Assembly: GCA_002733575.1 (NCBI GenBank)
Contig: NVWB01000003.1
Coordinates: forward strand, 39,197-103,196
Length of the DNA stretch: 64,000 nt
Direction: 5' to 3'
Source of the DNA: Blastopirellula sp.
Lineage (GTDB): Bacteria; Planctomycetota; Planctomycetia; Pirellulales; Pirellulaceae
In this document: in pieces, positions 34,374 through 46,771 of the stretch
How the letters are laid out: each line of letters starts with the position of its first letter
Position numbering within the stretch: the stretch's first letter is position 1
Position numbers and translations under genes: made by a program
The notes under the pieces: model-generated
Told to the model about the DNA's origin: nothing
The model's database searches: none
Seen by the model: the letters and a program-made list of their open reading frames with translations, nothing else

Positions 34374-36527
34374 TCAGCGACGTGTTGTAAATTCGGCAGA
34401 GTTCAACAGGCTCCAAAGTAAGTCTTCATAGGCTTCATTGCGGTTTTCTGTTGAAGCGATGAAATCAAGAGAAACTCGCATGTCACTCTCGGTTGGTTTG
34501 CGGGCCAGAATGTTGACAAACAATCGTTCAATGGCATGGCGATCATCCTTTGAGTTCTTCAGGATTTCAGCCAGTTTGGTATCTGAGTTTTTCTTCGCAT
34601 TCACTTCGGCCTGTAGCTGTTTATTGTTCATCATGTACATTGCTTGCTGCATCGTTTGCGGCCGAAAATCTTTGCCCAAGGAAGGATCGTATCCAAAGGC
34701 CTCGTTGATAAGATCTCGAGTGCTTTTGGCAGGGGGCGGAAAGCGAACAGTCTCAGTTTCCTTCCCTCGTTCTCCCTTGACGTTTTGCAGTTGAATGGAG
34801 ACCGCCAGCGAATCAAAGATCTCATCGCCACGAAGCTTTTTAGGCGTAGCTGCCGACAACAGCCCTAGGGTACTGCCATCTCGATTAAGATCTCGCTGAT
34901 ACGTTTTGGTGTTCATCATCAATCGAATCAGAGACTTGGCATCGTAATCAACCGAGATGAAATAATCGCCCACTGCGTTGTGCAATTCTGGAAAGCTGGA
35001 ATAGCCAGACTCATCAGAGATGTCATCAATTGGATCGCACAAGGCTTCATCCATCAAACGGTCCCAGACTCGGTTCACAAATGCCTTGGCGAACATTTTG
35101 TTATCACGCGAGGTGATCCAGCGAGACAAATTGGTTCGACGTTCAATATCCGAAATCCCTTTGGTTAGTTCATCTCCTTCAAAGACCGCAGGCATCATTT
35201 CTTTTCCGGTCTCCGGCATTTTATGTTCACCGGAAGTCTTACTCGAAACCTTGATTTGATTGCTGTCATTCCAGGGTAACTCGGCCTTGGTTCTGACAAA
35301 GAAGGCCGCCATTTGATGAAAGCGTTCTTGCGGGATGTCAACAAAAGGATGGTCGTGACATTCGGCACATTCGATTTGAGTTCCGAGGAATATGCGTGTT
35401 GTTTCTGATGCTAGGCGAGATGTGTCGGCCTGATGAAACCCGACAAAGAAAGCGGCCGGCACATCGGCAACTTTGCCGCTGCCTGTTAGTATCTGGTACG
35501 CGATATCATCCCAACCTGTGCCGGCGTTTAACTCTTCGCCAATCCATTTCTTGGGTGTATCATAATTCAAAAAGGTAAGCTGAGGCTGTGGAATGCGGTA
35601 GCTGAAAACATCGCTCCAATAATTGGCCCAGTTGTTTCCATAGCTGGGGGAATCGAGCAAACGATCAATCAACTTCGAGCGTTTATCAGGCGAGTGGTCT
35701 TGAGCGAACTCCATCGTTTCTGCTTCCGAAGGCATCCGGCCAATGACATCTAAAGTGGCCCGACGAAGAAACTGTTCGTCATCGATGATATCGGTCGTTT
35801 TTTCGATTCGAGCTTCCTTTTCGATCAGTTGATCTAGCTGATTCGAAGTGAATGAGACTCGGTCTGTATCGGACAGTGCCCCTCGAACAAAAGCTGGTGC
35901 TTTTTCAAGAATACTGGCCGGTTTCTTTTTTGCCGCAGGCTTTTTTACTGCGTTCGCCGCAATGGCCACTGGTTTAAACTTGGCCAGTTGTTGTTCCTCC
36001 TCTTTTGAAACAATCAGCAGGGCATCAATAATCACAATGCCTTTGGCATCTTGGTTGCTGATGGTAACTTCTAGTTTTTGATCGGCTGAGAAGGAGAACT
36101 CGCCTAGTAAATGAAAGGAAGCAGGCCCTTCTGGTTTCTTTCGCTGATCAAGCCGTATCTCTTCAATTCCATCGACATGCTTAATAGAAATCGGCACTGC
36201 TGCCGCACGACTCGATGCGCTGTTGTACGATAAATAAATTGAGTAATAGCCTGATGCGGGAAGCTCGGTTTCAAACAGAACCGATTTGCTTTCTTTACTT
36301 GTGGGATCAGAAAGTTGCCCACTATGAATATATCCCTGTCCGACATACGGCTTCGCGTGTGTCGAATCATGCCACTTGCCAGTCTTTTTAGCTTCTTGGT
36401 CATCAAGCAAAATCCCAGGCAGTTTGCTGGTATCAAGCCGGTCCTTGGCCCAAAGAAGTGACGGGGCACTCGTTGAGAGTAAGGCGACCGATAATGTGAG
36501 GACAAAGACCCGCATTAATCTTTTCAT
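34374..36527 (-). CDS. DUF1549/DUF1553 protein with N-terminal golvesin-like domain
   Basis: The 717-aa product has a signal peptide (VFVLTLSVALLSTSAPSLLWA). Instead of the cytochrome c domain of the 24330 gene it has a beta-sandwich at about residues 35-178 (LPGILLDDQEAKKTGKWHDS, VLFETELPASGYYSIYLSY, IIDALLIVS) that resembles the golvesin/xanthan-lyase C-terminal module. DUF1549 follows (IIDDEQFLRRATLDVIGRMPSEAE) with one CxxCH (CAECHDHPFVDI), then DUF1553 (NRVWDRLMDEAL, MYMMNNKQLQAEV, FVNILARKPTESDM). It is probably periplasmic and is paired with the downstream DUF1501 gene. Confidence 0.9.
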   Translation of the reverse strand: MKRLMRVFVLTLSVALLSTSAPSLLWAKDRLDTSKLPGILLDDQEAKKTGKWHDSTHAKPYVGQGYIHSGQLSDPTSKESKSVLFETELPASGYYSIYLSYNSASSRAAAVPISIKHVDGIEEIRLDQRKKPEGPASFHLLGEFSFSADQKLEVTISNQDAKGIVIIDALLIVSKEEEQQLAKFKPVAIAANAVKKPAAKKKPASILEKAPAFVRGALSDTDRVSFTSNQLDQLIEKEARIEKTTDIIDDEQFLRRATLDVIGRMPSEAETMEFAQDHSPDKRSKLIDRLLDSPSYGNNWANYWSDVFSYRIPQPQLTFLNYDTPKKWIGEELNAGTGWDDIAYQILTGSGKVADVPAAFFVGFHQADTSRLASETTRIFLGTQIECAECHDHPFVDIPQERFHQMAAFFVRTKAELPWNDSNQIKVSSKTSGEHKMPETGKEMMPAVFEGDELTKGISDIERRTNLSRWITSRDNKMFAKAFVNRVWDRLMDEALCDPIDDISDESGYSSFPELHNAVGDYFISVDYDAKSLIRLMMNTKTYQRDLNRDGSTLGLLSAATPKKLRGDEIFDSLAVSIQLQNVKGERGKETETVRFPPPAKSTRDLINEAFGYDPSLGKDFRPQTMQQAMYMMNNKQLQAEVNAKKNSDTKLAEILKNSKDDRHAIERLFVNILARKPTESDMRVSLDFIASTENRNEAYEDLLWSLLNSAEFTTRR

Positions 36528-36748
36528 AACGGCAAGACATCCTTAAGGAGCACCCTCGGTAAGGTAGGGACATATCGTGGCCCGAGAGTAAAGAATCTAA
36601 GTCTGTAGTCTACTCGATTTATGACCCCAAAGTCAATAAAACAAAGGACTTACTGTTGATATACTCGGCAAACGGCGGGCATAAGGGAAAGAAATCTTCC
36701 GCTGAGAGATTGAATTATCGAAATTCATAGCCTAAATTCGCTAACTGA

Positions 36749-37156
36749 TCATTCTGTTCGCAACTGGCCAATGCTCGATTGAAAATATTTCTTCCTGCGA
36801 ACAGTAACATCATCCGCAGAATCTTCCTGCTGGGCCTTTAAGTCAAACAAGTTGGCCTGGCAGAGCCGGCAGCCGACTTCATTCAGATGAAACTGGATAT
36901 ACTGCGTATGATCATCCTCAAGTATCTCTAACAGAAAACTGCCCAGTTCATCGCGTGACGGGCAAGAGATTCGATGACGCCGCCAGATCTCACCCACGGT
37001 ATGCACTCCAGCATCACGACGACTATTGATTTGAATTAACTGGGCACTTAGCTCCGAATTATTTCGCAGCGCATCTTCGATTGCACTCATCTCAGCGGCC
37101 GGTAAGGCTTCGTCGAGATAGGCTTCTAAATCAGATTGTCGAATACTGTTGGTCAT
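36749..37156 (-). CDS. Small anti-sigma-like protein with His/Cys cluster
   Basis: The 135-aa product has an N-terminal helical unit 'RQSDLEAYLDEALPAAEMSAIEDALRNNSELSAQL', as seen in planctomycete anti-sigma factors. A later 'FHLNEVGCRLCQANL' has the spacing of a zinc-binding HxxxCxxC (zf-HC2-type) motif. No membrane segment is evident. It is the last gene of the minus-strand signalling island and follows the AIM24-like gene by 96 bases. I infer that it controls the ECF sigma factor encoded at 38045, but this is not proven by sequence. Confidence 0.65.
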   Translation of the reverse strand: MTNSIRQSDLEAYLDEALPAAEMSAIEDALRNNSELSAQLIQINSRRDAGVHTVGEIWRRHRISCPSRDELGSFLLEILEDDHTQYIQFHLNEVGCRLCQANLFDLKAQQEDSADDVTVRRKKYFQSSIGQLRTE

Positions 37157-37252
37157 AAAAGATGAGTCCGGTATCTAAAGAATCAAACTGTGTGAGAAAA
37201 ATAGAATCGATGGTCAGAGAGAACTCCAACCATCGATTGCGGTGTACTTAGT

Positions 37253-37954
37253 TTAACCTTCTACGCCATAGAATTCTTCATAAGGTTGAATCACCACAAA
37301 CCCTTGTCCGATGAATTCCATTTGGAAAGATTCTCCACTTCCACGACCAAACAGCGATTTCAGAGAAGCGTCGATCTTCAAGTTCGGTTCAAGAGATCCG
37401 CTCCAAGCAACCGTAGCATTCGGATCGGTGTAGATTGGCTGGTCAGGCGTGACAACCAAAGTCATGGGTTCATAATGCGTGGTAATTGCCACCATGCCTG
37501 TTCCACGTAGTTTCACTTGGAACAACCCTCCGGCCATCATTGAAGAGACCTTCTTCATCATCTTGATTTCCCATTCGACACACATCTCGAAAGCTAAGAT
37601 ATCGTTGCCGTTGACAACAAGTTCTTCATTCTCCAGTTTCAAGATTTGGATTTTCTTGCCGTAATCTGCCAAGTAGACTTTGCCATTGCCGGTGGCTTTG
37701 GTCAATTTGGCCCCTTCCCCGGTAACTGCTTTTTTCAGGAAATTGCCAATTCCTTTTTCAAGTATCCCTTCGCGAATAAATTTTATATTCCCGACATACG
37801 AGATCATTGACCCCATCTTTGTCCAGACTTCTCCGTTCAGGTTGACCTCTAGAATTCGAGGGCTTTCCATCTCAAAGAAACCTTGGCCATGATCGCGCTC
37901 GGCTGTTTTTTCGACGAATTCTCTTAATGAATAACGATTGTCAGTAGTCGACAT
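37253..37954 (-). CDS. AIM24 family protein
   Basis: The 233-aa product has the AIM24/TrpRAP-like beta-barrel features 'PRILEVNLNGEVWTKMGSMISYVGNIKF', 'GKVYLADYGKKIQILKLENEELVVNGNDILAFE', 'GLFQVKLRGTGMVAITTHYEPMTLVVTPDQPIYTDPNATVAWSGSLEP' and 'SGESFQMEFIGQGFVVIQPYEE'. Bacterial members are of unknown function and are often in stress-related operons. The start is well supported by AGAGGTG before the ATG. It sits between the ECF sigma gene and the small anti-sigma-like gene. Confidence 0.9.
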   Translation of the reverse strand: MSTTDNRYSLREFVEKTAERDHGQGFFEMESPRILEVNLNGEVWTKMGSMISYVGNIKFIREGILEKGIGNFLKKAVTGEGAKLTKATGNGKVYLADYGKKIQILKLENEELVVNGNDILAFEMCVEWEIKMMKKVSSMMAGGLFQVKLRGTGMVAITTHYEPMTLVVTPDQPIYTDPNATVAWSGSLEPNLKIDASLKSLFGRGSGESFQMEFIGQGFVVIQPYEEFYGVEG

Positions 37955-38044
37955 GTTTCACCTCTTGTGAAAAGAATAAATGAGGATAATTGAACGAAAA
38001 TGAGACAAGTAAATAAGTTCTGCTACTTCAATATTCCAATTCGA

Positions 38045-38692
38045 TTAATTAGTAACATACAACTCGGGAAAGACTTCTTCACTGAGCCCTTGCTTCCGAA
38101 TAGCATTACGCAGTTTGGCCAAGAAGTCAAATTTATAATTGGCCACATGCTGTTCTGAGATTTCCAACTTGATCGCTACATCTTTATTGGCCCAACCTCG
38201 CACGACTAACAGTTCCAAGCATTTTACCTTGATCCAATCGCCCCGATCTCGCCAATGCTTGAGTTGATCTTCCACCGCTTGTACCAGCGCGGTCTCTTCA
38301 AGCTTCTTGCGCTCCCCACTTCTGGCTATGCTCGAAGCAGCACGAAAATTGCCATCCAACTGCCAGTCTTCTCCTGAAGATTTGCTGCCAGCGTTCAGGG
38401 GCAAAGTAGGCCGGCGGCCTTCACGGCGCAGATGATCGGTTAATTTATACGCACAGATAGCGAACAGGTAACTCTCAAGCGAGCGTTTGCCATCGTAGTT
38501 GGGTAAGCTGTTGAGGAACCCGATAAAGGCTTCTTGCACCACGTCTTCACTTGCCGCTCGTCTACCGATTCGACTTTCGGCGAAGGCCAATAAACGCCCT
38601 TCGTAGCGAGAAATCAAATCGCCCCAGGCATCTTGTTCTCCAGCACGAATTCGCTTGATAAGCAGAGCATCAGTTTCCGAAACTTCAGACAT
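38045..38692 (-). CDS. ECF-type sigma factor in the signalling island
   Basis: The 215-aa product contains sigma-70 region 2 (WGDLISRYEGRLLAFAESRIGRRAASEDVVQEAFIGFLNSL, then SLESYLFAICAYKLTDHLRR) and a region-4-like helix-turn-helix (RDRGDWIKVKCLELLVVRGWANKDVAIKLEISEQHVANYKFDFLAKL). The linker between the two is long and polar. The region-4 sequence departs from the usual GxSxxEIA pattern. It lies downstream of the kinase, mini-protein and membrane-protein genes on the same strand, so kinase signalling may control it (inference). Confidence 0.88.
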   Translation of the reverse strand: MSEVSETDALLIKRIRAGEQDAWGDLISRYEGRLLAFAESRIGRRAASEDVVQEAFIGFLNSLPNYDGKRSLESYLFAICAYKLTDHLRREGRRPTLPLNAGSKSSGEDWQLDGNFRAASSIARSGERKKLEETALVQAVEDQLKHWRDRGDWIKVKCLELLVVRGWANKDVAIKLEISEQHVANYKFDFLAKLRNAIRKQGLSEEVFPELYVTN

Positions 38693-38774
38693 AGATCGCC
38701 TGTCAAAAATGAGAAGAGTTGAAAGGAATCTGGTGAATTAGGACAGCAGCAAACAGGTTGTTGAATGCTGCATT

Positions 38775-39815
38775 TTAACCCATTCCTAACCGAAGAGTTA
38801 GCAAAACACCACCAGCTACGAACCCTAGTATTGCGACTATTGTAACAAACTGCAACCTTCCAGGGTATTTGCCATCGGTAGCTTGGTGAGTTTTTAAGAT
38901 TCCATACGCAAAACCAAGCACTAGAAGTACGGAGCCAAAAATAGCTGCGACCGCGTAGAGCCGGTTGGTACGCTGGACATCGTTCCAAAATGCGGCCATG
39001 TCGACATCAAATTGATCATTAAACTGCAAATGGGCATGCCACTGGTTCATAGGGCCAATTTCTAACTGTAATTTTTCCTTGTATGTGTCAATGATGATAT
39101 TATCTTCTAAGTATTGCTTGTCGAGTCGAAACTTTTTACTCGCAAAGGAAATACCTATCGACTCATCGATCATGTCATTCACAACTTTATCGATCTCCTC
39201 TGCCAGAAATCGTTTGCAATCACTCTCTCGATCATAAGGGCCTGAGCTCACCGATACATATTGGCCCCCATTTTCTTCATAGTATCCGCGGTCTACCCAA
39301 CTTGGCCTGCCACGCGGAATGATCTTTGAAATCGGCTCTTCCGCCGATTCTTCTTCCGTTGTATCGGTCTCTGACGTATCCACTTCCGTTAATTCAGTTG
39401 AATCAATGCCTGGACCTTCAGCAAGACTCTCGTTAGTTCCCGTAGCAGTAGCGTCTGCGGTTTTGGCAGAAGAATCCCTAGTCACTTTACCCTCAATGGT
39501 CACTCCTGAATGAGAGATTTCATCAAAAGCTTCACGTGGAATCACCCCAATTTGTTGATCACGTGAAAGCATTTCGCGCTGCACCGCTCTTGATTCACTG
39601 AACTCCATTTGTACTCTGGTGGTTTTCACCAAAAAGAGACTGGCAAATATGAGGACAATAGGAACTACGATTACCCCCATGCCAGAAAGAATCAGCAATA
39701 GCCACCATTTCTTGGTCAGGACCAATCCAACTATGGCAAGTACAGAAACAATTCCGATCAAACCAACTACCAATAGGCTGATGATTGCAAAATCCATTTG
39801 AGGTTGGGCATTCAT
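38775..39815 (-). CDS. Membrane protein with acidic Thr/Ser/Glu-rich loop
   Basis: The 346-aa product has two N-terminal TM helices (about 9-30 and 36-63: IISLLVVGLIGIVSVLAIVGLVL and WWLLLILSGMGVIVVPIVLIFASLFLV). A low-complexity acidic stretch follows at about 118-165 (STELTEVDTSETDTTEEESAEE), then a mixed soluble domain (about 175-285), then two C-terminal TM helices (AVAAIFGSVLLVLGFAYGIL, FVTIVAILGFVAGGVLLTL). Downstream of the kinase and mini-protein genes, it could be a kinase target; the Thr/Ser-rich acidic loop offers many phospho-acceptor sites (inference). Family not recognised. Confidence 0.75.
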   Translation of the reverse strand: MNAQPQMDFAIISLLVVGLIGIVSVLAIVGLVLTKKWWLLLILSGMGVIVVPIVLIFASLFLVKTTRVQMEFSESRAVQREMLSRDQQIGVIPREAFDEISHSGVTIEGKVTRDSSAKTADATATGTNESLAEGPGIDSTELTEVDTSETDTTEEESAEEPISKIIPRGRPSWVDRGYYEENGGQYVSVSSGPYDRESDCKRFLAEEIDKVVNDMIDESIGISFASKKFRLDKQYLEDNIIIDTYKEKLQLEIGPMNQWHAHLQFNDQFDVDMAAFWNDVQRTNRLYAVAAIFGSVLLVLGFAYGILKTHQATDGKYPGRLQFVTIVAILGFVAGGVLLTLRLGMG

Positions 39816-40023
39816 GATTTTAATTAAACCTAGCGGAATCGTATATATTGAGTAAAAGATAAAACAGCACCGCTGCTTAATAGATCATTCGCTCTGACTC
39901 TGACGTTCTTAGGGACGTGAAACGAATTTACTTCAGAATACTCAAATTATTCTCTATTTGCGAGCCACAAAGAAAGTTGGACTCGATTATTGGCAAATCA
40001 ATGAGACAGGAATCCGAGAGGAT

Positions 40024-40155
40024 TTATGAGGATTTCTTGCGAAACACTAAGGCCAGAAGAGCGACCACAAAAAAGAAAAGGAAAAAACCAAAGGCTCCGA
40101 TGGCGAACACAACCGACCAAGGCGTCATCATTACGGTTTCTGCGAATAAAATCAT
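40024..40155 (-). CDS. Mini membrane protein A (43 aa), sixth and last of the array
   Basis: The frame encodes one TM helix rich in Phe (VVFAIGAFGFFLFFFVVALL) followed by the basic end FRKKSS. The ATG at 40155 follows the stop of mini protein B by 4 bases, and GGGGTG overlapping that stop serves as its Shine-Dalgarno sequence. It shares the 'one helix plus KK tail' plan with the five genes upstream. Function unknown. Confidence 0.6.
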   Translation of the reverse strand: MILFAETVMMTPWSVVFAIGAFGFFLFFFVVALLALVFRKKSS

Positions 40156-40159
40156 TGTT

Positions 40160-40348
40160 TCACCCCTGCTTTTTAGTGGCAACCACTGCGATAACAGCCA
40201 CTACTACAATTGCTGCAACTAAACCGAATATCACCAAAAGACCAAGACCGAGTAAACCAATCATCGTTCGACCACCTGAAAATACGCTCGCTTGTCCGAT
40301 TAGACTTAGAGCAGAGGATGAATAAATAAATTGAGAAAGGACGCTCAT
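40160..40348 (-). CDS. Mini membrane protein B (62 aa)
   Basis: The product begins MSVLSQFIYSSSALSLIGQ and has one long hydrophobic segment (MIGLLGLGLLVIFGLVAAIV, continuing VVAVIAVVA) and the tail TKKQG. It is a paralogue of mini protein C, with which it shares the MSVLSQ start, the LxGQxS motif, the length and the helix. Its ATG overlaps the TGA of gene C as ATGA, so translation is coupled. Confidence 0.7.
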   Translation of the reverse strand: MSVLSQFIYSSSALSLIGQASVFSGGRTMIGLLGLGLLVIFGLVAAIVVVAVIAVVATKKQG

Positions 40349-40533
40349 GATTTTTTCTTGGAAACAACAGCGACGACTGCAATTAAAACAACGATACCTA
40401 GTAGACCAAGTACTCCAAGCCCGACCAGTATGATTAACAATCTGCTGTAATGTGCCACTGGGGCAGCAGCTGATATTTGGCCAACTAGGCAAATGTCTGT
40501 CAATGAAGGAATTGCTTGAGAAAGAACACTCAT
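40345..40533 (-). CDS. Mini membrane protein C (62 aa)
   Basis: The product begins MSVLSQAIPSLTDICLVGQ, followed by a helix with LGVLGLLGIVVLIAVVAVV and the tail SKKKS. A strong AGAGG lies six bases before the ATG and overlaps the end of mini gene D. It is the clearest paralogue of B (N-terminus and length) and of D (helix and SKKK tail), which shows that these genes arose by tandem duplication. Confidence 0.75.
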   Translation of the reverse strand: MSVLSQAIPSLTDICLVGQISAAAPVAHYSRLLIILVGLGVLGLLGIVVLIAVVAVVSKKKS

Positions 40534-40542
40534 CTAAGGCCT

Positions 40543-40650
40543 CTATTTCTTCTTGGAAACAACTGCCACGACTGTGATGAAGACCACGATACCTAGCAGC
40601 CCCAGCACCGCGAGCCCGGCTAAAATTACCACCAACCAACTAAGCATCAT
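40543..40650 (-). CDS. Mini membrane protein D (35 aa)
   Basis: The product is almost only a TM helix: LSWLVVILAGLAVLGLLGIV followed by VFITVVAVVSKKK. The segment from GLLGIVV to SKKK matches mini protein C nearly residue for residue, but D lacks C's 25-residue N-terminal extension. AAGGGA lies upstream of the ATG. The gene ends 9 bases before the ATG of gene C. Confidence 0.65.
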   Translation of the reverse strand: MMLSWLVVILAGLAVLGLLGIVVFITVVAVVSKKK

Positions 40651-40682
40651 GATGATTTCCCTTGAATGGGTTTAGTTTCAAA

Positions 40683-40790
40683 TTATTGTTTACGTTTGGT
40701 CAACAAGACAACACCGGCAATTGCTCCGAGAACAACGGCACCGACCAATGCTAAAATCCCAACAATGATTACAAGCTCTAAGACACCCAT
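40683..40790 (-). CDS. Mini membrane protein E (35 aa)
   Basis: The product begins MGVLELVIIVGILALVGAVV, continues as one TM helix, and ends LLTKRKQ. A strong AGGAG lies seven bases before the ATG, which makes translation likely. It resembles mini protein F (MG start, an ELxI block, basic KR(R)K end). Together with the kinase-tail relic at 40822-40878 this points to one duplicated unit. Confidence 0.65.
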   Translation of the reverse strand: MGVLELVIIVGILALVGAVVLGAIAGVVLLTKRKQ

Positions 40791-40821
40791 GATAATTCTC
40801 CTGTAAAAAGTTCTTGTTTAA

Positions 40822-40878
40822 TTAATCTTCATACGGTGCTGACAGTTGATCGTCGATTGCAATCGTCGCAACCATCAT
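40822..40878 (-). pseudogene. Relic of the kinase 3' end (reads as an 18-aa frame)
   Basis: The frame reads MMVATIAIDDQLSAPYED. The kinase encoded upstream contains MMAGSIAIAVQLSAPW and ends in TSAPYDE, so 10 of 16 aligned positions are identical, and the DNA can be aligned too. The piece therefore looks like the shrunken copy of the kinase C-terminus left by a tandem duplication. AGGGA lies shortly before the ATG, so it might still be translated as a micropeptide. Confidence 0.6.
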
Positions 40879-40904
40879 CTTTCCCTAATCCAAATTCGCT
40901 TAAA

Positions 40905-41015
40905 CTACTTTCGACGTTTGGCCAGTATGATTGCCACTATTACTGCTATTCCTCCGAGCAGAAAAACTGAACACGGACAACCAAGTATTAATAATTCCTG
41001 CCAACCTAATCCCAT
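40905..41015 (-). CDS. Mini membrane protein F (36 aa), first of the array
   Basis: The product begins MGLGWQELLILGCPCSVFLL, continues as one TM helix with a CPC motif, and ends AIILAKRRK. It starts 31 bases after the kinase stop on the same strand. The paired cysteines inside the membrane part are unique in the array. Its resemblance to mini protein E and the kinase-tail relic between the two suggest that it is the parent or sister copy of E. Confidence 0.6.
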   Translation of the reverse strand: MGLGWQELLILGCPCSVFLLGGIAVIVAIILAKRRK

Positions 41016-41045
41016 CTACTGATTTCCAAAATGAATTTCAATTTA

Positions 41046-43274
41046 TTACTCATCATACGGTGCAGATGTTTTCGTATCTGCCAACAACATTCGTTTACGT
41101 CGTTCGTCTCGCAACCTGGGGCTAACCCATGGTGCTGAGAGTTGTACCGCAATCGCAATTGAACCGGCCATCATCACGCCCCATGGCTGTGCAAATGGCC
41201 AAACAGCGTTCAGCACTACGGCCCAGAGTACGCAGACAATCGTTGCCCAAATACTAAGTCGGGTGGTTCGCAGAGGATCGGCCAATTTCCACCAGCGTAA
41301 TACTAAAAACAAGCCAGCAAAGTAAACCAGGAATGAACCAACGGTGAGTTGTCCATCGGGCGTACTCAATTCTTCAAAATAATTATTAAGAGCGCGAATC
41401 CTGTGATCAGGTGTAATCGCTAAATGTTCACTAAGCAGTGAGCTTGATGCAAGGGCAATTGCACCCAGTATTAGCCCAAGCCCCAACATCCAAAACCGAT
41501 GGAACACAGCTTCCCCTTCGCTTGACTCCAATTTTTTCGAGACGATTAATATCATCCACGAACCGCTTGTGACTACAATGGTCATCCAAGCAAGCCAAGG
41601 CCCCCAAGTTGTCACTGAGCCCTCGTAGGAAATTTTGGCAACTGGCAGCAGAACAATCGACAACACAATAGCCACAATCGCACTCATTAATAGAGAGCCA
41701 GTTAGCTCTGTGGCTGAATCAATCAGCGGCTTTTTCGCCAGCACTTTGCGGTCCAGTTCCATCCGGCTTGGCTTTTTTGTTCGCGGCTCTTTGACCTTGT
41801 TTTTCCGTGCCATCGCGGTCGGGTGATATTGTTTCTGTTCGGCCACAGTAGTGTTCTTTCTGGAATCAACGGTACTTCGGCTCCCAGTCTGAATCGCTAC
41901 AGTCCGAATTAACAGGTAGGCACAATAGGCCCCGCCTAATACAAAACTAAGTGGCAATAGCCATGCGGAATTTAGGACAAAGAACATCCCCAGCAAAACT
42001 AGCACAATGATCTTGGGGAACATGCTGGTGTTGTCATTGTTCCACCAAGTGCTAAATGATTCGAAAAAACCCCCAACTGCTTTTGCAATCGGCTCTTCAT
42101 CTTGACCTGAGTTCAATTCGGCATGCGGAATCGCCAGCGGTGCAACAAAATCGTTGGCTGGATGATCAACCGGTACCGCATGATTTCCATTCACGCCGTG
42201 CTGATTAACACGAGAGTTTTTCTTCGCAACTAAATCAGCTTCGCTGAGCTGGGGTGATTGTTCGCCTGTAGTGAAGTGTTGTGGCAATATGTGTGAGTCT
42301 TCATTCGTAATTCCTATCCGTTGCAGCAACTCTTCTGCGGTATGAATTCGATGGTCAGGGTCTTTGACTAAACAGGCTTCGATGGCCGAATAATAGGGCT
42401 CTTCGATGCCTGTTAAATCAGGGTCTGCCATGAGATGCTTCATCATAATCTCTTGGCCACTCTCTCCTTCAAATGGAACGCGGCCGGTTAGCATCTCGCA
42501 CAAGATAATACCGAGAGCATAAATGTCGATCTCTCGACCGTAATTTCCTCGGCCAATCTCAGGGGCCATATAGTGGAAGGTGCCGACACTTTCGGTCTGA
42601 CCACTGCGGCGACTTACGGAGATAAACTTCGAGAGACCATAGTCTCCGATTTTGATAATATCAGCATCACTAAAGATATTGCCTGGCTTTAAATCTCGAT
42701 GGACAATTCCATGGTCATGCAAGTAACCAACGCCGGCAGCTAATGGACGGAACCAATGCAGCACTTCTTTCAAAGGCATGCCGTTAGGGTTGGATTCAAT
42801 TGCATCTTGCAGCGATTCGCCCGAGACGTATTCCATCACGACCCAGCCTTCGCCTGACTCATCGTATTTGATGTCGTACAACGAAACTAAGTTCGGATGC
42901 TTTAAGTTTAAGCACTGACGGACTCCACGCATTTCGATATCAAGGTGGCGTTGAATATGCTTGAGCGCAACTTCTTTACCACCTTCACTGGTTGCGTAGT
43001 AAACTTCACCAAATCCACCAGCGCCTACACCGCGTTTAATTGTGTAGCCCTCTAATGGACTCGATCCGCTTGTGTAGGTAAATTTCATTTTCTGTCCTCG
43101 CGATCCTCTTGCCGCGTCTGCACCATGCAGGCCTGCTTCTTTGTTATGCAGGCCATTGTCAGCACTGTGAAGCGCTGTCTGCCGATTGGTTCCGCTGCTA
43201 GGGTCTAACGTAGCGGCCTGGTCGTGCATTTGTCTAGTTCCCATTATAAAAGGTTTCTTCCAGTTCTGAGTCAT
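41046..43274 (-). CDS. Transmembrane Ser/Thr protein kinase (Hanks type)
   Basis: The 742-aa product has a 65-residue polar N-terminus and a kinase domain at about 73-335. The domain has the glycine loop (GVGAGGFGEVYYA, 82-94), VALK lysine (Lys105), HRDLKPGN catalytic loop (Asp194), DYG instead of DFG (211-213), and APE (YMAPEIGRG). A long polar linker follows, then about eight hydrophobic helices from about residue 425 to 715. The C-terminus is basic (RLRDERRKRMLL) and ends TSAPYDE. Multiple C-terminal TM helices are unlike the single-TM PASTA kinases. It lies 25 bases downstream of the FHA gene and just upstream of the mini-protein array. Confidence 0.93.
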   Translation of the reverse strand: MTQNWKKPFIMGTRQMHDQAATLDPSSGTNRQTALHSADNGLHNKEAGLHGADAARGSRGQKMKFTYTSGSSPLEGYTIKRGVGAGGFGEVYYATSEGGKEVALKHIQRHLDIEMRGVRQCLNLKHPNLVSLYDIKYDESGEGWVVMEYVSGESLQDAIESNPNGMPLKEVLHWFRPLAAGVGYLHDHGIVHRDLKPGNIFSDADIIKIGDYGLSKFISVSRRSGQTESVGTFHYMAPEIGRGNYGREIDIYALGIILCEMLTGRVPFEGESGQEIMMKHLMADPDLTGIEEPYYSAIEACLVKDPDHRIHTAEELLQRIGITNEDSHILPQHFTTGEQSPQLSEADLVAKKNSRVNQHGVNGNHAVPVDHPANDFVAPLAIPHAELNSGQDEEPIAKAVGGFFESFSTWWNNDNTSMFPKIIVLVLLGMFFVLNSAWLLPLSFVLGGAYCAYLLIRTVAIQTGSRSTVDSRKNTTVAEQKQYHPTAMARKNKVKEPRTKKPSRMELDRKVLAKKPLIDSATELTGSLLMSAIVAIVLSIVLLPVAKISYEGSVTTWGPWLAWMTIVVTSGSWMILIVSKKLESSEGEAVFHRFWMLGLGLILGAIALASSSLLSEHLAITPDHRIRALNNYFEELSTPDGQLTVGSFLVYFAGLFLVLRWWKLADPLRTTRLSIWATIVCVLWAVVLNAVWPFAQPWGVMMAGSIAIAVQLSAPWVSPRLRDERRKRMLLADTKTSAPYDE

Positions 43275-43299
43275 TCTTTTGCCTCAAAAACTGAAAACT

Positions 43300-44073
43300 T
43301 TAGGAAGTCTCCACTCGTTCCAGGAAAAACGAAAAGTCTTCTCCCTGAACCGAGGTACTCTCTTTGATCTCTTGAATCCCTGTGACAGGGCGTCCTTGGA
43401 TCAAATAGTTCTGCTTGACCTTGACTTGGAGAATGCCATTTTTCTTAAACAGCACCACATCCTCTTGCCATTTGGGGCAAACAATATGATTTCTCGTGTT
43501 AGGGCCCAGTATGCAAGACTCACCCATTAACACCACTGCATCACAGGCTGGTTCCATGCGTTGACGACTAATCATCGTCAAAACCGCACTTGAACTGAGT
43601 GGGTGCTGTTTACGAAAGCGAAGCCCCACATTTCTGCCCAGCCCAATCGTATTGTTGTCTCGCAATACAGTGGGTTGCGTGGCAACCTGTTTTCCAATCG
43701 ATGTTGGCGATAGTGGGTCCAACACATAGTCGGAACCGACACGTCTGATCCAAGCATGTCTTCTACTGAGATCTGCCAAGATCGGGACATCGACACCTGA
43801 ATGCGGCACTGCTTGGCCGATCATCACTTGATCCGCTAGTAGTAACCGGTATCCTCCGACACCATCAATCCAAATTTGAAAGCTCTCAGCCACGGACATG
43901 CTTACTCTCGATGAGAAGTAGGTGGTTTCACGGTCGTTCGATTCTAATCCACGAGACGTATCGTGTTTTGAATCCTTGTTATTTATATGACTGCCTGTCT
44001 CAGATTGATTCATGACTTTATCCAATTGGATGCCAGGCTTCGTATCACTATATTTTGTATCACTTAGACTCAT
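43300..44073 (-). CDS. FHA-domain protein
   Basis: The 257-aa product has a polar N-terminus rich in Ser/Thr/Asp (about 1-58). A forkhead-associated domain follows: 'YRLLLADQVMIGQAVPHSGVDVPILADLSRRHAWIRRVGSDYVLDPLSPTSIGKQVATQPTVLRDNNTIGLGRNVGLRFRK'. The LSRRHAWI stretch holds the conserved Ser-Arg-His that read phosphothreonine. The C-terminal half is a second beta-rich part (ESCILGPNTRNHIVC). As the first gene before the kinase, it is likely the phospho-reader or substrate of that kinase. Confidence 0.88.
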   Translation of the reverse strand: MSLSDTKYSDTKPGIQLDKVMNQSETGSHINNKDSKHDTSRGLESNDRETTYFSSRVSMSVAESFQIWIDGVGGYRLLLADQVMIGQAVPHSGVDVPILADLSRRHAWIRRVGSDYVLDPLSPTSIGKQVATQPTVLRDNNTIGLGRNVGLRFRKQHPLSSSAVLTMISRQRMEPACDAVVLMGESCILGPNTRNHIVCPKWQEDVVLFKKNGILQVKVKQNYLIQGRPVTGIQEIKESTSVQGEDFSFFLERVETS

Positions 44074-44272
44074 TATGAATCGTTTACTCGATTTGTGCGA
44101 CTTGTGAACTATTAGTAATTCGCCAGATGTCGAGCTTTATTAGTTTTTTTCTGGAAAAACTGAGAAAATCCCTTCTCTACCAAACGATAGGAAAGCCGTG
44201 GCCCAATTGACCACGACTCTCGCTTCGCTGTTTGTTCAGGAAGTTTTCTCGGATGCCTTTGCAAGCATCATC

Positions 44273-45124
44273 TTAGTTGATGCTTGGTTCCAGACTAATT
44301 TTCGCCAAGACTTCAACCGTTTCGTCAAGTTGGGTTTCTGCAACCAACTCTTCGGTTCCGGCCATGCCAAAATAGGCTGCTACTTCGTCAGATACATCTG
44401 CAACTTCTGGCTGATTTAGTTGAATCTCTTCGGCAAAGTAACCTTCAGAATCAACAAGACGTTCGGCCACTTCGATGCGGGTTTGAATGTCTCGTAACAA
44501 GCTTTTGGTGCGTGCCAGATGACTATCATCAAACTGGAAGTCACTCGTGGTTTGAGCCACTTCGACCATTTTCATACGAGCTTCTAAGTTCTCGACATTG
44601 ACTTCTAACTGACGTTTTGAAGACAACATTCCGTCAAGCTTCGCACGAGCTGCCGAAAGTCCTTTTTCTCGGGCTCGCAAGATGCTTTCGAGCTTCACCC
44701 GAGTTGCATCTTGGGTCTTATACCGGGTAAATCGACTCGAAAGATCGGTTTGCACCTGATCTCGTGAGTAGCTATGACTGGCATAAACGTAAGTCGTTTT
44801 TCCTTCATCCAGATCGGTCTTAAGCCGCAGTAAATCGGCCTGGTCTCCATTGAGTCCATTTTGAAGCTTGGAAACCTGAAGCTGCATCCGTTCGACTTCT
44901 ACTTCTTCTTTCGCAATCAAGTGCATGTTGCGACGAATTTCGGGTGTCAGATTTTTAATCATCTGACGGGCTCGGTCTAATTCAAATTCAACCGGCACGC
45001 TGCCTTTTACCTGTTCCTGCAAGCGACTAGCGGTCGTTGAGACATAACTCGCTGCTCCGGTGCCAAACACTAATCCTAGAACCAGTGTTGAGCCTGTTCC
45101 AACTAATAATAATTTCTTAAACAT
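44273..45124 (-). CDS. Membrane-anchored coiled-coil protein (possible second start at 45199)
   Basis: The 283-aa product starts MFKKLLLVGTGSTLVLGLVFG, a single N-terminal TM helix. A long coiled coil follows at about 28-230 (VPVEFELDRARQMIKNLTPEIRRNMHLIAKEEVEVERMQLQVSKL, RVKLESILRAREKGLSAARAKLDGMLSSKRQLEVNVENLEARMKM), then a disordered acidic tail. The ATG at 45124 has GGAGG eight bases upstream. In the same frame, an ATG at 45199 has AAGGAG seven bases upstream and would add MCNHENECGMRHQAQRLHKK-type residues with two Cys and three His. Both could be used. It is divergent from a sigma-54-driven small gene. The planctomycete family has no known function. Confidence 0.82.
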   Translation of the reverse strand: MFKKLLLVGTGSTLVLGLVFGTGAASYVSTTASRLQEQVKGSVPVEFELDRARQMIKNLTPEIRRNMHLIAKEEVEVERMQLQVSKLQNGLNGDQADLLRLKTDLDEGKTTYVYASHSYSRDQVQTDLSSRFTRYKTQDATRVKLESILRAREKGLSAARAKLDGMLSSKRQLEVNVENLEARMKMVEVAQTTSDFQFDDSHLARTKSLLRDIQTRIEVAERLVDSEGYFAEEIQLNQPEVADVSDEVAAYFGMAGTEELVAETQLDETVEVLAKISLEPSIN

Positions 45125-45199
45125 GGTCAAATCCTCCATCTTTTTGTGGAGCCTTTGTGCTTGGTGACGCATGCCACATTCGTTTTCGTGATTGCACAT

Positions 45200-45624
45200 A
45201 AGGTAACTCCTTGTAGTAAAAACTGCCTGATACATGGGGGATTTCGCCAGCAAGCAGTCGATATTGGTAAATCTCCAAAAAACTTTTCAATGTTCTTGAA
45301 ATAAGGTCATTTTTCTTGTTTTGACCCAAAATAGGAGGCGGTCAAACCAAAGATGCCTCTAAATGATGCTTTTAGTCCGTGCAATGCTGTCAGAATGAGA
45401 TTGCCGTCGCAAAATGACAACAAGTTTTGAGAAACTTTTGAGAGAACCAATTAATTACAGATTGCGTAACAATAGAAGGAACAAGAGCTTACGAGTTATT
45501 TTCGCTAAAATTTGACAAAACAAGCGAACATGGCACCTCACTTGCACTGTCTTGATAGTAGCAACAACTCCTGTCAATGATGGAGTTCAGCCAATAGAGA
45601 AGAGAAGAGAAGAGGAGAGCTATC
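45200..45624. other. Divergent intergenic region with a sigma-54 promoter
   Basis: The 425 bases separate the coiled-coil gene (minus) from the 64-aa gene (plus). They contain a sigma-54 promoter at 45531-45545 and a small leader hairpin AACTCC/GGAGTT at 45566-45587. No other gene was seen. The space upstream of the promoter could hold enhancer-binding sites, but no clear inverted repeat was picked. Confidence 0.5.
45531..45545 (+). promoter_or_regulatory. Sigma-54 (RpoN) -24/-12 promoter
   Basis: TGGCAC-N5-TTGC is followed by AC. The GG (45532-45533) and GC (45544-45545) are ten bases apart, as sigma-54 requires. Transcription should start near 45557, giving a leader of about 68 bases to the ATG at 45625 with AGGAG in front. 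Confidence 0.72.
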
Positions 45625-45819
45625 ATGAATTACGAATCAGAATTGCCGACTTCACCGAAAAACTCCGGCATCACCTTAGAATCGCCTGTCGAGACCCAAT
45701 CTTGCCAGACCATCGCTGAGTTCTCTACCTGGCTCGACGCCGAACTTCAAAATCTAGAAGACAAATACGCGGATCAGATTACGCGTAAATCTCTGGCAGT
45801 TAGTCTTAAACGAAATTAA
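45625..45819 (+). CDS. Small soluble protein driven by a sigma-54 promoter
   Basis: The 64-aa product has a polar, disordered N-terminal half (SELPTSPKNSGITLESPVETQ). A C-terminal amphipathic helix follows (FSTWLDAELQNLEDKYADQI) with a basic end (TRKSLAVSLKRN). AGGAG eight bases before the ATG supports the start. It is divergent from the coiled-coil gene, so the two may be coregulated. The family is not recognised; the helix could mediate binding to a partner. Confidence 0.7.
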   Translation: MNYESELPTSPKNSGITLESPVETQSCQTIAEFSTWLDAELQNLEDKYADQITRKSLAVSLKRN

Positions 45820-45857
45820 TGCGGGTGGTGCCCTGGGATCAATAGCTAAAGAGTTGG

Positions 45858-46286
45858 CTAGATTGAACTCTCATCTTCCGAGTTCATCTCACGCTTTATT
45901 CTGCGATATTTTAATATCGAGTCGATGATATAAAAAATAGATGCTAGAAATATCGCCGCAAAAACGCACTTGTGTATCATTTTGGTGGTTAACACCGCTA
46001 CTGCCAAGAATAAAAGTGAATTGAGAAAACCAAAACCAGCGCACGCCAAGTAACGAAAGGCTAAGGCTCTATCAGTATATAATTCACCACGTTTTTGTAG
46101 ACGAACGAAAAAAAGCTCTGCGATACCCGCGTAAATAAAAACGAGTGAGATGAGGGAACCTATAACGTAGTCACTGATCGTTGCTTGAAACAAAAAGATC
46201 ACTGGTACAATGGCAAGAAAAAAACAAACAACAGCTCTCAGTGAACTGGCGTTGGTTTGATTATGATCGCTTTGTTGTTCTGACAC
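45858..46286 (-). CDS. Four-TM membrane protein, paralogue 1
   Basis: The 142-aa product has four hydrophobic helices (AVVCFFLAIVPVIFLFQ, VIGSLISLVFIYAGIAELFF, FGFLNSLLFLAVAVL, CVFAAIFLASIFYIIDSIL) and a charged tail (KYRRIKREMNSEDESSI). It starts with GTG, preceded by GAGG. It shares length, helix order, the QSD near the start and an acidic end with the next gene, 50 bases upstream on the same strand. AT-rich relative to the heptose genes next door. Function unknown. Confidence 0.7.
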   Translation of the reverse strand: MSEQQSDHNQTNASSLRAVVCFFLAIVPVIFLFQATISDYVIGSLISLVFIYAGIAELFFVRLQKRGELYTDRALAFRYLACAGFGFLNSLLFLAVAVLTTKMIHKCVFAAIFLASIFYIIDSILKYRRIKREMNSEDESSI

Positions 46287-46336: not shown

Positions 46337-46771
46337 CTAAGGTTCAGAATCACTCTTCAGTAATTCCACTCTCCGCTTCAATTCGCAAGATTTTCTATAT
46401 CTCTCAATAACGAGAAAGACTTGAGAGAGTGATAAAGCTGAGAAGAGAACGATTATCACCATGCTGGTTGATGTCATTGCTAGAACCATCGAGAGTATCA
46501 CAAGAATAAAAAAGAAGACCGCTTGTTCCTTGCACTGGATAATTCGAGTGCTGTCACTGTGTAAGACCCCATGCTTTACACGTTGGTAATTCCTATATGC
46601 GATGAAGGCTCCCATGATAAACCAGAGCGAATAGAGAGTAAAGACAACTACTCCCTGCACGTTGGTTGATGTAATTGCAAATGCCAAGCACATAATCACA
46701 AACAGAAAACAACCAACGGCAGAAAGAATAAACCCTGTGGCAGATTCTCGGTCACTTTGCAAGTTCGACAT
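46337..46771 (-). CDS. Four-TM membrane protein, paralogue 2
   Basis: The 144-aa product has four helices (ILSAVGCFLFVIMCLAFAI, VVVFTLYSLWFIMGAFIAY, AVFFFILVILSMVLAM, MVIIVLFSALSLSQVFLVI) and a basic-then-acidic tail (RYRKSCELKRRVELLKSDSEP). It is a tandem paralogue of the 45858 gene. The TST repeats at the helix 1 and helix 3 ends suggest an internal two-helix duplication. Function unknown. Confidence 0.7.
   Translation of the reverse strand: MSNLQSDRESATGFILSAVGCFLFVIMCLAFAITSTNVQGVVVFTLYSLWFIMGAFIAYRNYQRVKHGVLHSDSTRIIQCKEQAVFFFILVILSMVLAMTSTSMVIIVLFSALSLSQVFLVIERYRKSCELKRRVELLKSDSEP

Follow-up and report, generated by a model that had tools for sequence, protein, structure and literature searches.

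Introduction

KdpF, CydX and AcrZ are hydrophobic accessory subunits of about 30–50 aa with one helix, some of which are encoded in the operon of their complex, and a few model bacteria are known to control sensor kinases through mini membrane proteins. TatA is composed of a transmembrane helix, a hinge and an amphipathic helix, and the N-terminus of TatA/TatE is similar in general outline to MGxGxxELLIIG. The 47-aa membrane peptide MgrB inhibits PhoQ (PMC2789325). In the ECF43 kinase/sigma pairs EcfP/PknT and EcfK/PknS a membrane Ser/Thr kinase is encoded near an ECF sigma factor, and ECF43 members have mostly lost the acidic DxxD residues of sigma region 2.2 (PMC13147305).

The window described here is the whole 64 kb stretch of DNA that was analysed. 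Its minus strand carries, over about 1.0 kb (40024–41015), an array of six tandem ORFs with one helix each, which is compared below with these systems.

Organization of the Array

Two types of mini-proteins are distinguished: type I (genus g65, and the first ORF of genus g19, Blastopirellula) opens with MS(W) and continues into a helix whose end reads AA..SRRxQ or SRGRQ, and type II (g19) reads MGxGxxELLIIG...K. ORF F (40905–41015, 36 aa, MGLGWQELLILGCPCS...AKRRK), which starts 30 bases past the kinase stop, and ORF E (40683–40790, 35 aa, MGVLELVIIV...TKRKQ) are of type II. ORF D (40543–40650, 35 aa, MMLSWLVVILAG...SKKK) is of type I, and ORFs C (40345–40533, 62 aa), a tandem copy of D, and B (40160–40348, 62 aa), a copy in the D-C-B series, have an N-terminal extension ahead of a type I core. 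ORF A (40024–40155, 43 aa) has a single helix and an RKKSS tail. All are encoded on the minus strand.

As reported in the preliminary description of this DNA, each of the six frames has a hydrophobic helix and a basic end, all six C-termini carrying basic residues in the sequence. The shared motifs that it listed were recovered as well, namely GLLGIVVxIxVVAVVSKKK in C and D, the MSVLSQ start of B and C, and the MG start and basic end of E and F. C and B were said to overlap, and B and A to be coupled; the start of B lies within the stop of C (ATGA, overlap of 4 bases) and only 4 bases separate B from A, the gap between D and C being 9 bases. Good Shine-Dalgarno sites, claimed for several frames, were seen in E (AGGAG) and A (AGGGG), while that of D is moderate (AAGG) and those of F, C and B are weak. 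The placement of the array between an FHA/kinase pair and an ECF sigma factor was correct on the kinase side, but on the sigma side the gene of a 346-aa membrane protein, p346 (38775–39815, minus strand), intervenes, beginning 208 bases beyond A.

Both strands of the whole 64 kb window were filtered for mini-ORFs (ATG, 30–65 aa, best 19-residue hydropathy of at least 2.5, and at least two Lys/Arg among the last eight residues), and only the six ORFs were obtained, all within the array and on one strand. Markov surrogates of the array interval gave one match in 4/2000 (order-1) and 3/2000 (order-2) cases and never two; since the criteria were fixed after the six ORFs had been seen, the finding is to be judged by the surrogate rate and not by the exact count. 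Scans for promoter and terminator consensus were uninformative, and promoters occurred at the shuffled rate.

Kinase and Sigma Factor Operon

Most of the genera sampled within the order share the same gene series (coiled coil, FHA, kinase, p346, sigma factor, small Cys/His protein), and p346 usually comes directly after the kinase in the loci of relatives. In the window all these genes are on the minus strand. The first gene of the conserved cluster encodes a coiled-coil protein (44273–45133) with an N-terminal hydrophobic segment and no Pfam family; against the PDB, its profile gave a phage tail needle alone (E 0.001), which was read as a coiled-coil artefact. The FHA-domain protein (43300–44073) matched PF00498 with E 0.0017, just under the cut-off, and the assignment is confirmed because relatives match the same family at 4e-7 and 7e-9. 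This protein is short in the clade of this genome, and in many other genera (L031, L045) it has an N-terminal TPR-like extension of at least 200 aa. The Ser/Thr protein kinase (41046–43274) is composed of a PknB-like catalytic domain (PF00069, 3e-50; PknB in the PDB, 2e-31) and a C-terminal multi-pass membrane domain, as judged from its hydrophobic segments.

For p346 the predicted architecture is two helices (TM1-TM2), a disordered linker, a confidently modelled alpha/beta domain (172–265) and two C-terminal helices (TM3-TM4). It had no match in Pfam, and no fold was found for its model in the PDB (best no better than E 0.06). A different expansion at the same spot was observed in locus L049, where the kinase is followed by a tandem pair of p346-like genes (466 and 332 aa).

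The ECF sigma factor (38045–38692; PF04542, 4.5e-14; PF07638, 3.8e-8) is followed by an AIM24-family protein (37253–37954, also minus strand; PF01987, 7e-39), an operon member in the mini-protein clade and a few other genera. Relatives sharing 61–79% identity with the latter (L147–L226) turn up in records from planctomycetes, Bacillus, Verrucomicrobia and Methanosarcinales. This scatter suggests that the protein evolves slowly, that its gene is widely transferred or that MAG contigs were mis-binned. Downstream of both the sigma factor and the AIM24 gene is encoded a syntenic 135-aa protein (36749–37156) with invariant C65, H90, C96 and C99 and a conserved RR.KYFQSS motif, matching zf-HC2 at E 0.14 only; it could be a soluble protein that regulates the sigma factor. 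Upstream of the operon, two genes in tandem (45858–46286 and 46337–46771) encode paralogous membrane proteins with several helices, which are 142 and 144 aa long and 27% identical and for which no family was found above cut-off.

Distribution and Phylogeny

Every locus of the relatives was scanned whole with a filter similar to that of the window. Mini-ORFs were present at the kinase-p346 junction of this genome (six), of all four sampled Blastopirellula genomes (g19; two to three each) and of all nine genomes of g65 (one each), and none was seen in the other 49 loci of the tree. Among the carriers there is a cultured strain, Blastopirellula marina DSM 3645 (G084, g19; NZ_AANZ01000002.1), with two mini-ORFs. 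In the kinase and sigma tree the 14 genomes with mini-ORFs formed one clade (support 1.0), in which this genome is sister to g19 + g65.

The family profile A3 matched 13/397 genomes and 3/146 genera of the order, always at the kinase-p346 locus; the rows of this profile come from those three genera, so matches in them are expected by construction and the result is the absence elsewhere. Profile searches gave no convincing copies elsewhere in the own genome. A class-wide sample added nothing convincing; one borderline segment in another genus (E 4e-4), within a 565-aa frame, was rejected. Loci surrounding AIM24 genes, 1.0 Mb in total, contained mini-ORF arrays in Blastopirellula and g65 only, and other matches were isolated single frames. 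Beside the two intact copies of locus L129 a weak third match was detected (G085:C3:142655-142717, E 0.09), possibly a decaying copy.

In most sampled genera this kinase operon lacks mini-proteins altogether, and the mini-proteins are thus not essential to the core circuit.

Subfamilies, Duplication and Selection

The mini-proteins gave nothing above cut-off against Pfam, NCBIfam, PHROGs and PADLOC, and no description of the array was found in the literature covered, which did not extend to the 2012 survey of planctomycete signal transduction. In size (about 30–65 aa), single helix, basic tail and location between kinase and p346 they agree with the mini-protein family of the Blastopirellula clade as defined here. 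Their relationship was assessed with a type I model derived solely from relatives and a type II model derived solely from Blastopirellula, using 1000 hydropathy-preserving shuffles. With the type II model, ORF F was equalled or beaten by 0/1000 shuffles, as was ORF E (27.7 bits); with the type I model, D was equalled by 1/1000 and both C and B were above nearly all shuffles. Five of the six ORFs therefore match models made without this genome, and ORF A matches neither. When the own genome was searched without restriction with relative-only models, the type I copies were not found and the type II copies were not significant (E-values 0.6 and 4.7), such weak scores being expected of 35-residue helices; the homology claim accordingly rests on position and the targeted shuffle test. 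The mini-proteins belong to a clade-specific family that probably has a single origin, at the kinase-p346 junction in the common ancestor of g65, Blastopirellula and this genome.

The D-C-B series consists of tandem DNA copies (self-match of 271 columns, E 6e-17). Between F and E lies a relic of the kinase 3' end (40818–40879, minus strand), with 71% identity over 45 bases (41175–41131) and 84% over 25 bases (41066–41042), which indicates that a unit of kinase tail and mini-ORF was duplicated in tandem. Growth to six copies is at least partly due to tandem duplication, directly visible for B/C/D and in the relic.

A deficit of amino-acid changes was found in the relatives L135/L138 (dN 0.03, dS 0.51, p 2e-5) and L132/L137 (dN 0.13, dS 0.80, p 8e-4) and in the type II pair L127/L128 (dN 0.05, dS 0.72, p 3e-5). 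The same was found for paralogues D and C (dN 0.11, dS 1.54, p 1.7e-5), the one pair of this genome to which dN/dS was applicable, since A, B, E and F lack a sufficiently close partner. Lack of conservation and a dN/dS near 1 had been named beforehand as outcomes contrary to the coding interpretation; the frames are instead conserved across the clade and dN/dS is far below 1. That chance or decay produced these frames is extremely improbable: part of the duplicated interval is indeed non-functional DNA, as the kinase-tail relic demonstrates, but the surrogate rates, the clade-wide presence and the dN/dS values all contradict it. On the sequence data, the six ORFs are confirmed as real genes under purifying selection and not as chance frames or pseudogenes. 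The preliminary view of genuine, expanded mini membrane proteins that are linked to a kinase operon and cannot be named is upheld by synteny, clade-wide presence, purifying selection and the lack of a family match.

Size, one helix and a basic tail would also suit hydrophobic toxin-like peptides of the type I toxin kind. Such a nature is very unlikely, given that the genes are co-directional within a conserved operon, occur at a single locus and are under protein-level selection in relatives; besides the lack of a family match, no Rfam family was found within 36000–46000 of the window, and so no known antisense RNA family.

Resemblance to p346 TM1

For the first helix of p346 in the window, 0/1000 hydropathy-preserving shuffles fitted the type II model as well as the helix itself, and for that of L127, 1/1000 fitted the type I model as well, whereas nine other p346 and kinase helices matched no model; about 50 model-helix pairs were tried in this comparison. 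With profile A1, TM1 was the best non-array match of the own genome (E 0.007), and it shares with the mini-proteins the predicted N-out/C-in layout and a KK at its end. From these likenesses the mini-proteins could be stand-alone descendants of TM1 that compete with it or replace it on the kinase membrane domain, as decoy or exchange helices, which is a narrower form of the accessory-helix role proposed below. This origin is doubtful, however: the link is mixed across genomes, TM1 of several relatives matching no model, profile A3 did not recover TM1, and the self-comparison of the DNA revealed no similarity between TM1 and the mini-ORFs. Exchangeable transmembrane helices taken from TM1 and multiplied in tandem would provide an adjustable set for tuning a Hanks-type membrane kinase that controls an ECF sigma factor, a scheme that is likewise put forward as an improbable one.

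The TM1 resemblance in the window also bears on a role in the envelope itself, in which the mini-proteins would be co-expressed through the operon and act in membrane stabilisation or stress, not binding the kinase. Two products of the operon, the AIM24 and coiled-coil proteins, could have envelope functions, and small membrane proteins are described as often up-regulated under unfavourable conditions (PMC12719787). Both the similarity of TM1 to the type II mini-proteins and the fact that a search of 397 genomes detected none outside the kinase-p346 junction argue against this role, which is retained as a tentative and rather unlikely possibility.

Proposed Role

By the positive-inside rule, the mini-proteins are predicted to be single-pass proteins with N-out/C-in orientation and a cytoplasmic basic tail. 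From their position and topology we propose, with middling confidence, that they are accessory helices of the kinase-p346 membrane complex. They would pack against membrane domains in the kinase, in p346 or in both, and in this way tune assembly or activity of the signalling complex; copy number could set dosage, and sequence differences could set partner preference. We infer that the mini-proteins are translated and associate physically with kinase and/or p346. Of the functions initially suggested, kinase subunit fits best by context and a sensor is inseparable from it, while the toxin-like peptide is disfavoured by operon context and selection. The series of one to six copies among relatives, which includes the two copies of the cultured B. 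marina DSM 3645, makes the role of the helices testable.

Comparison with Known Systems

The sigma factor operon resembles the ECF43 pairs in that a membrane Ser/Thr kinase gene lies near an ECF sigma gene, but this locus adds p346, FHA and the mini-proteins, and its sigma factor keeps the acidic ED..QE, reading AASEDVVQE by eye, with acidic residues before QE. Direct phospho-control of the sigma factor of the ECF43 type is not indicated, because these residues are kept.

The type II copies start with MGxGxxELLIIG, as in the TatA outline; they are only 35–40 aa long and have neither amphipathic helix nor hinge. Membership in TatA was rejected, the array proteins having 35–62 aa and a short basic tail, and no Pfam TatA match was obtained at E up to 5. 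KdpF, CydX and AcrZ are single-copy, whereas the array comprises up to six paralogues and its partner is putative.

MgrB and the array have in common a one-helix mini-protein tied to a membrane kinase. MgrB is N-in/C-out, its gene is under PhoP control as part of a feedback, and its target is a histidine kinase, while the array, for which the basic C-termini predict N-out/C-in, is multicopy within the operon of a Hanks-type kinase and has no sequence match to MgrB, nor to any described family of small regulators in Pfam and NCBIfam above cut-off. By analogy, the array may work like small regulatory helices such as MgrB, without being a member of its family. Small membrane proteins tied to membrane kinases are already known; what is new here is a small family without library match that is bound to one kinase/sigma operon.
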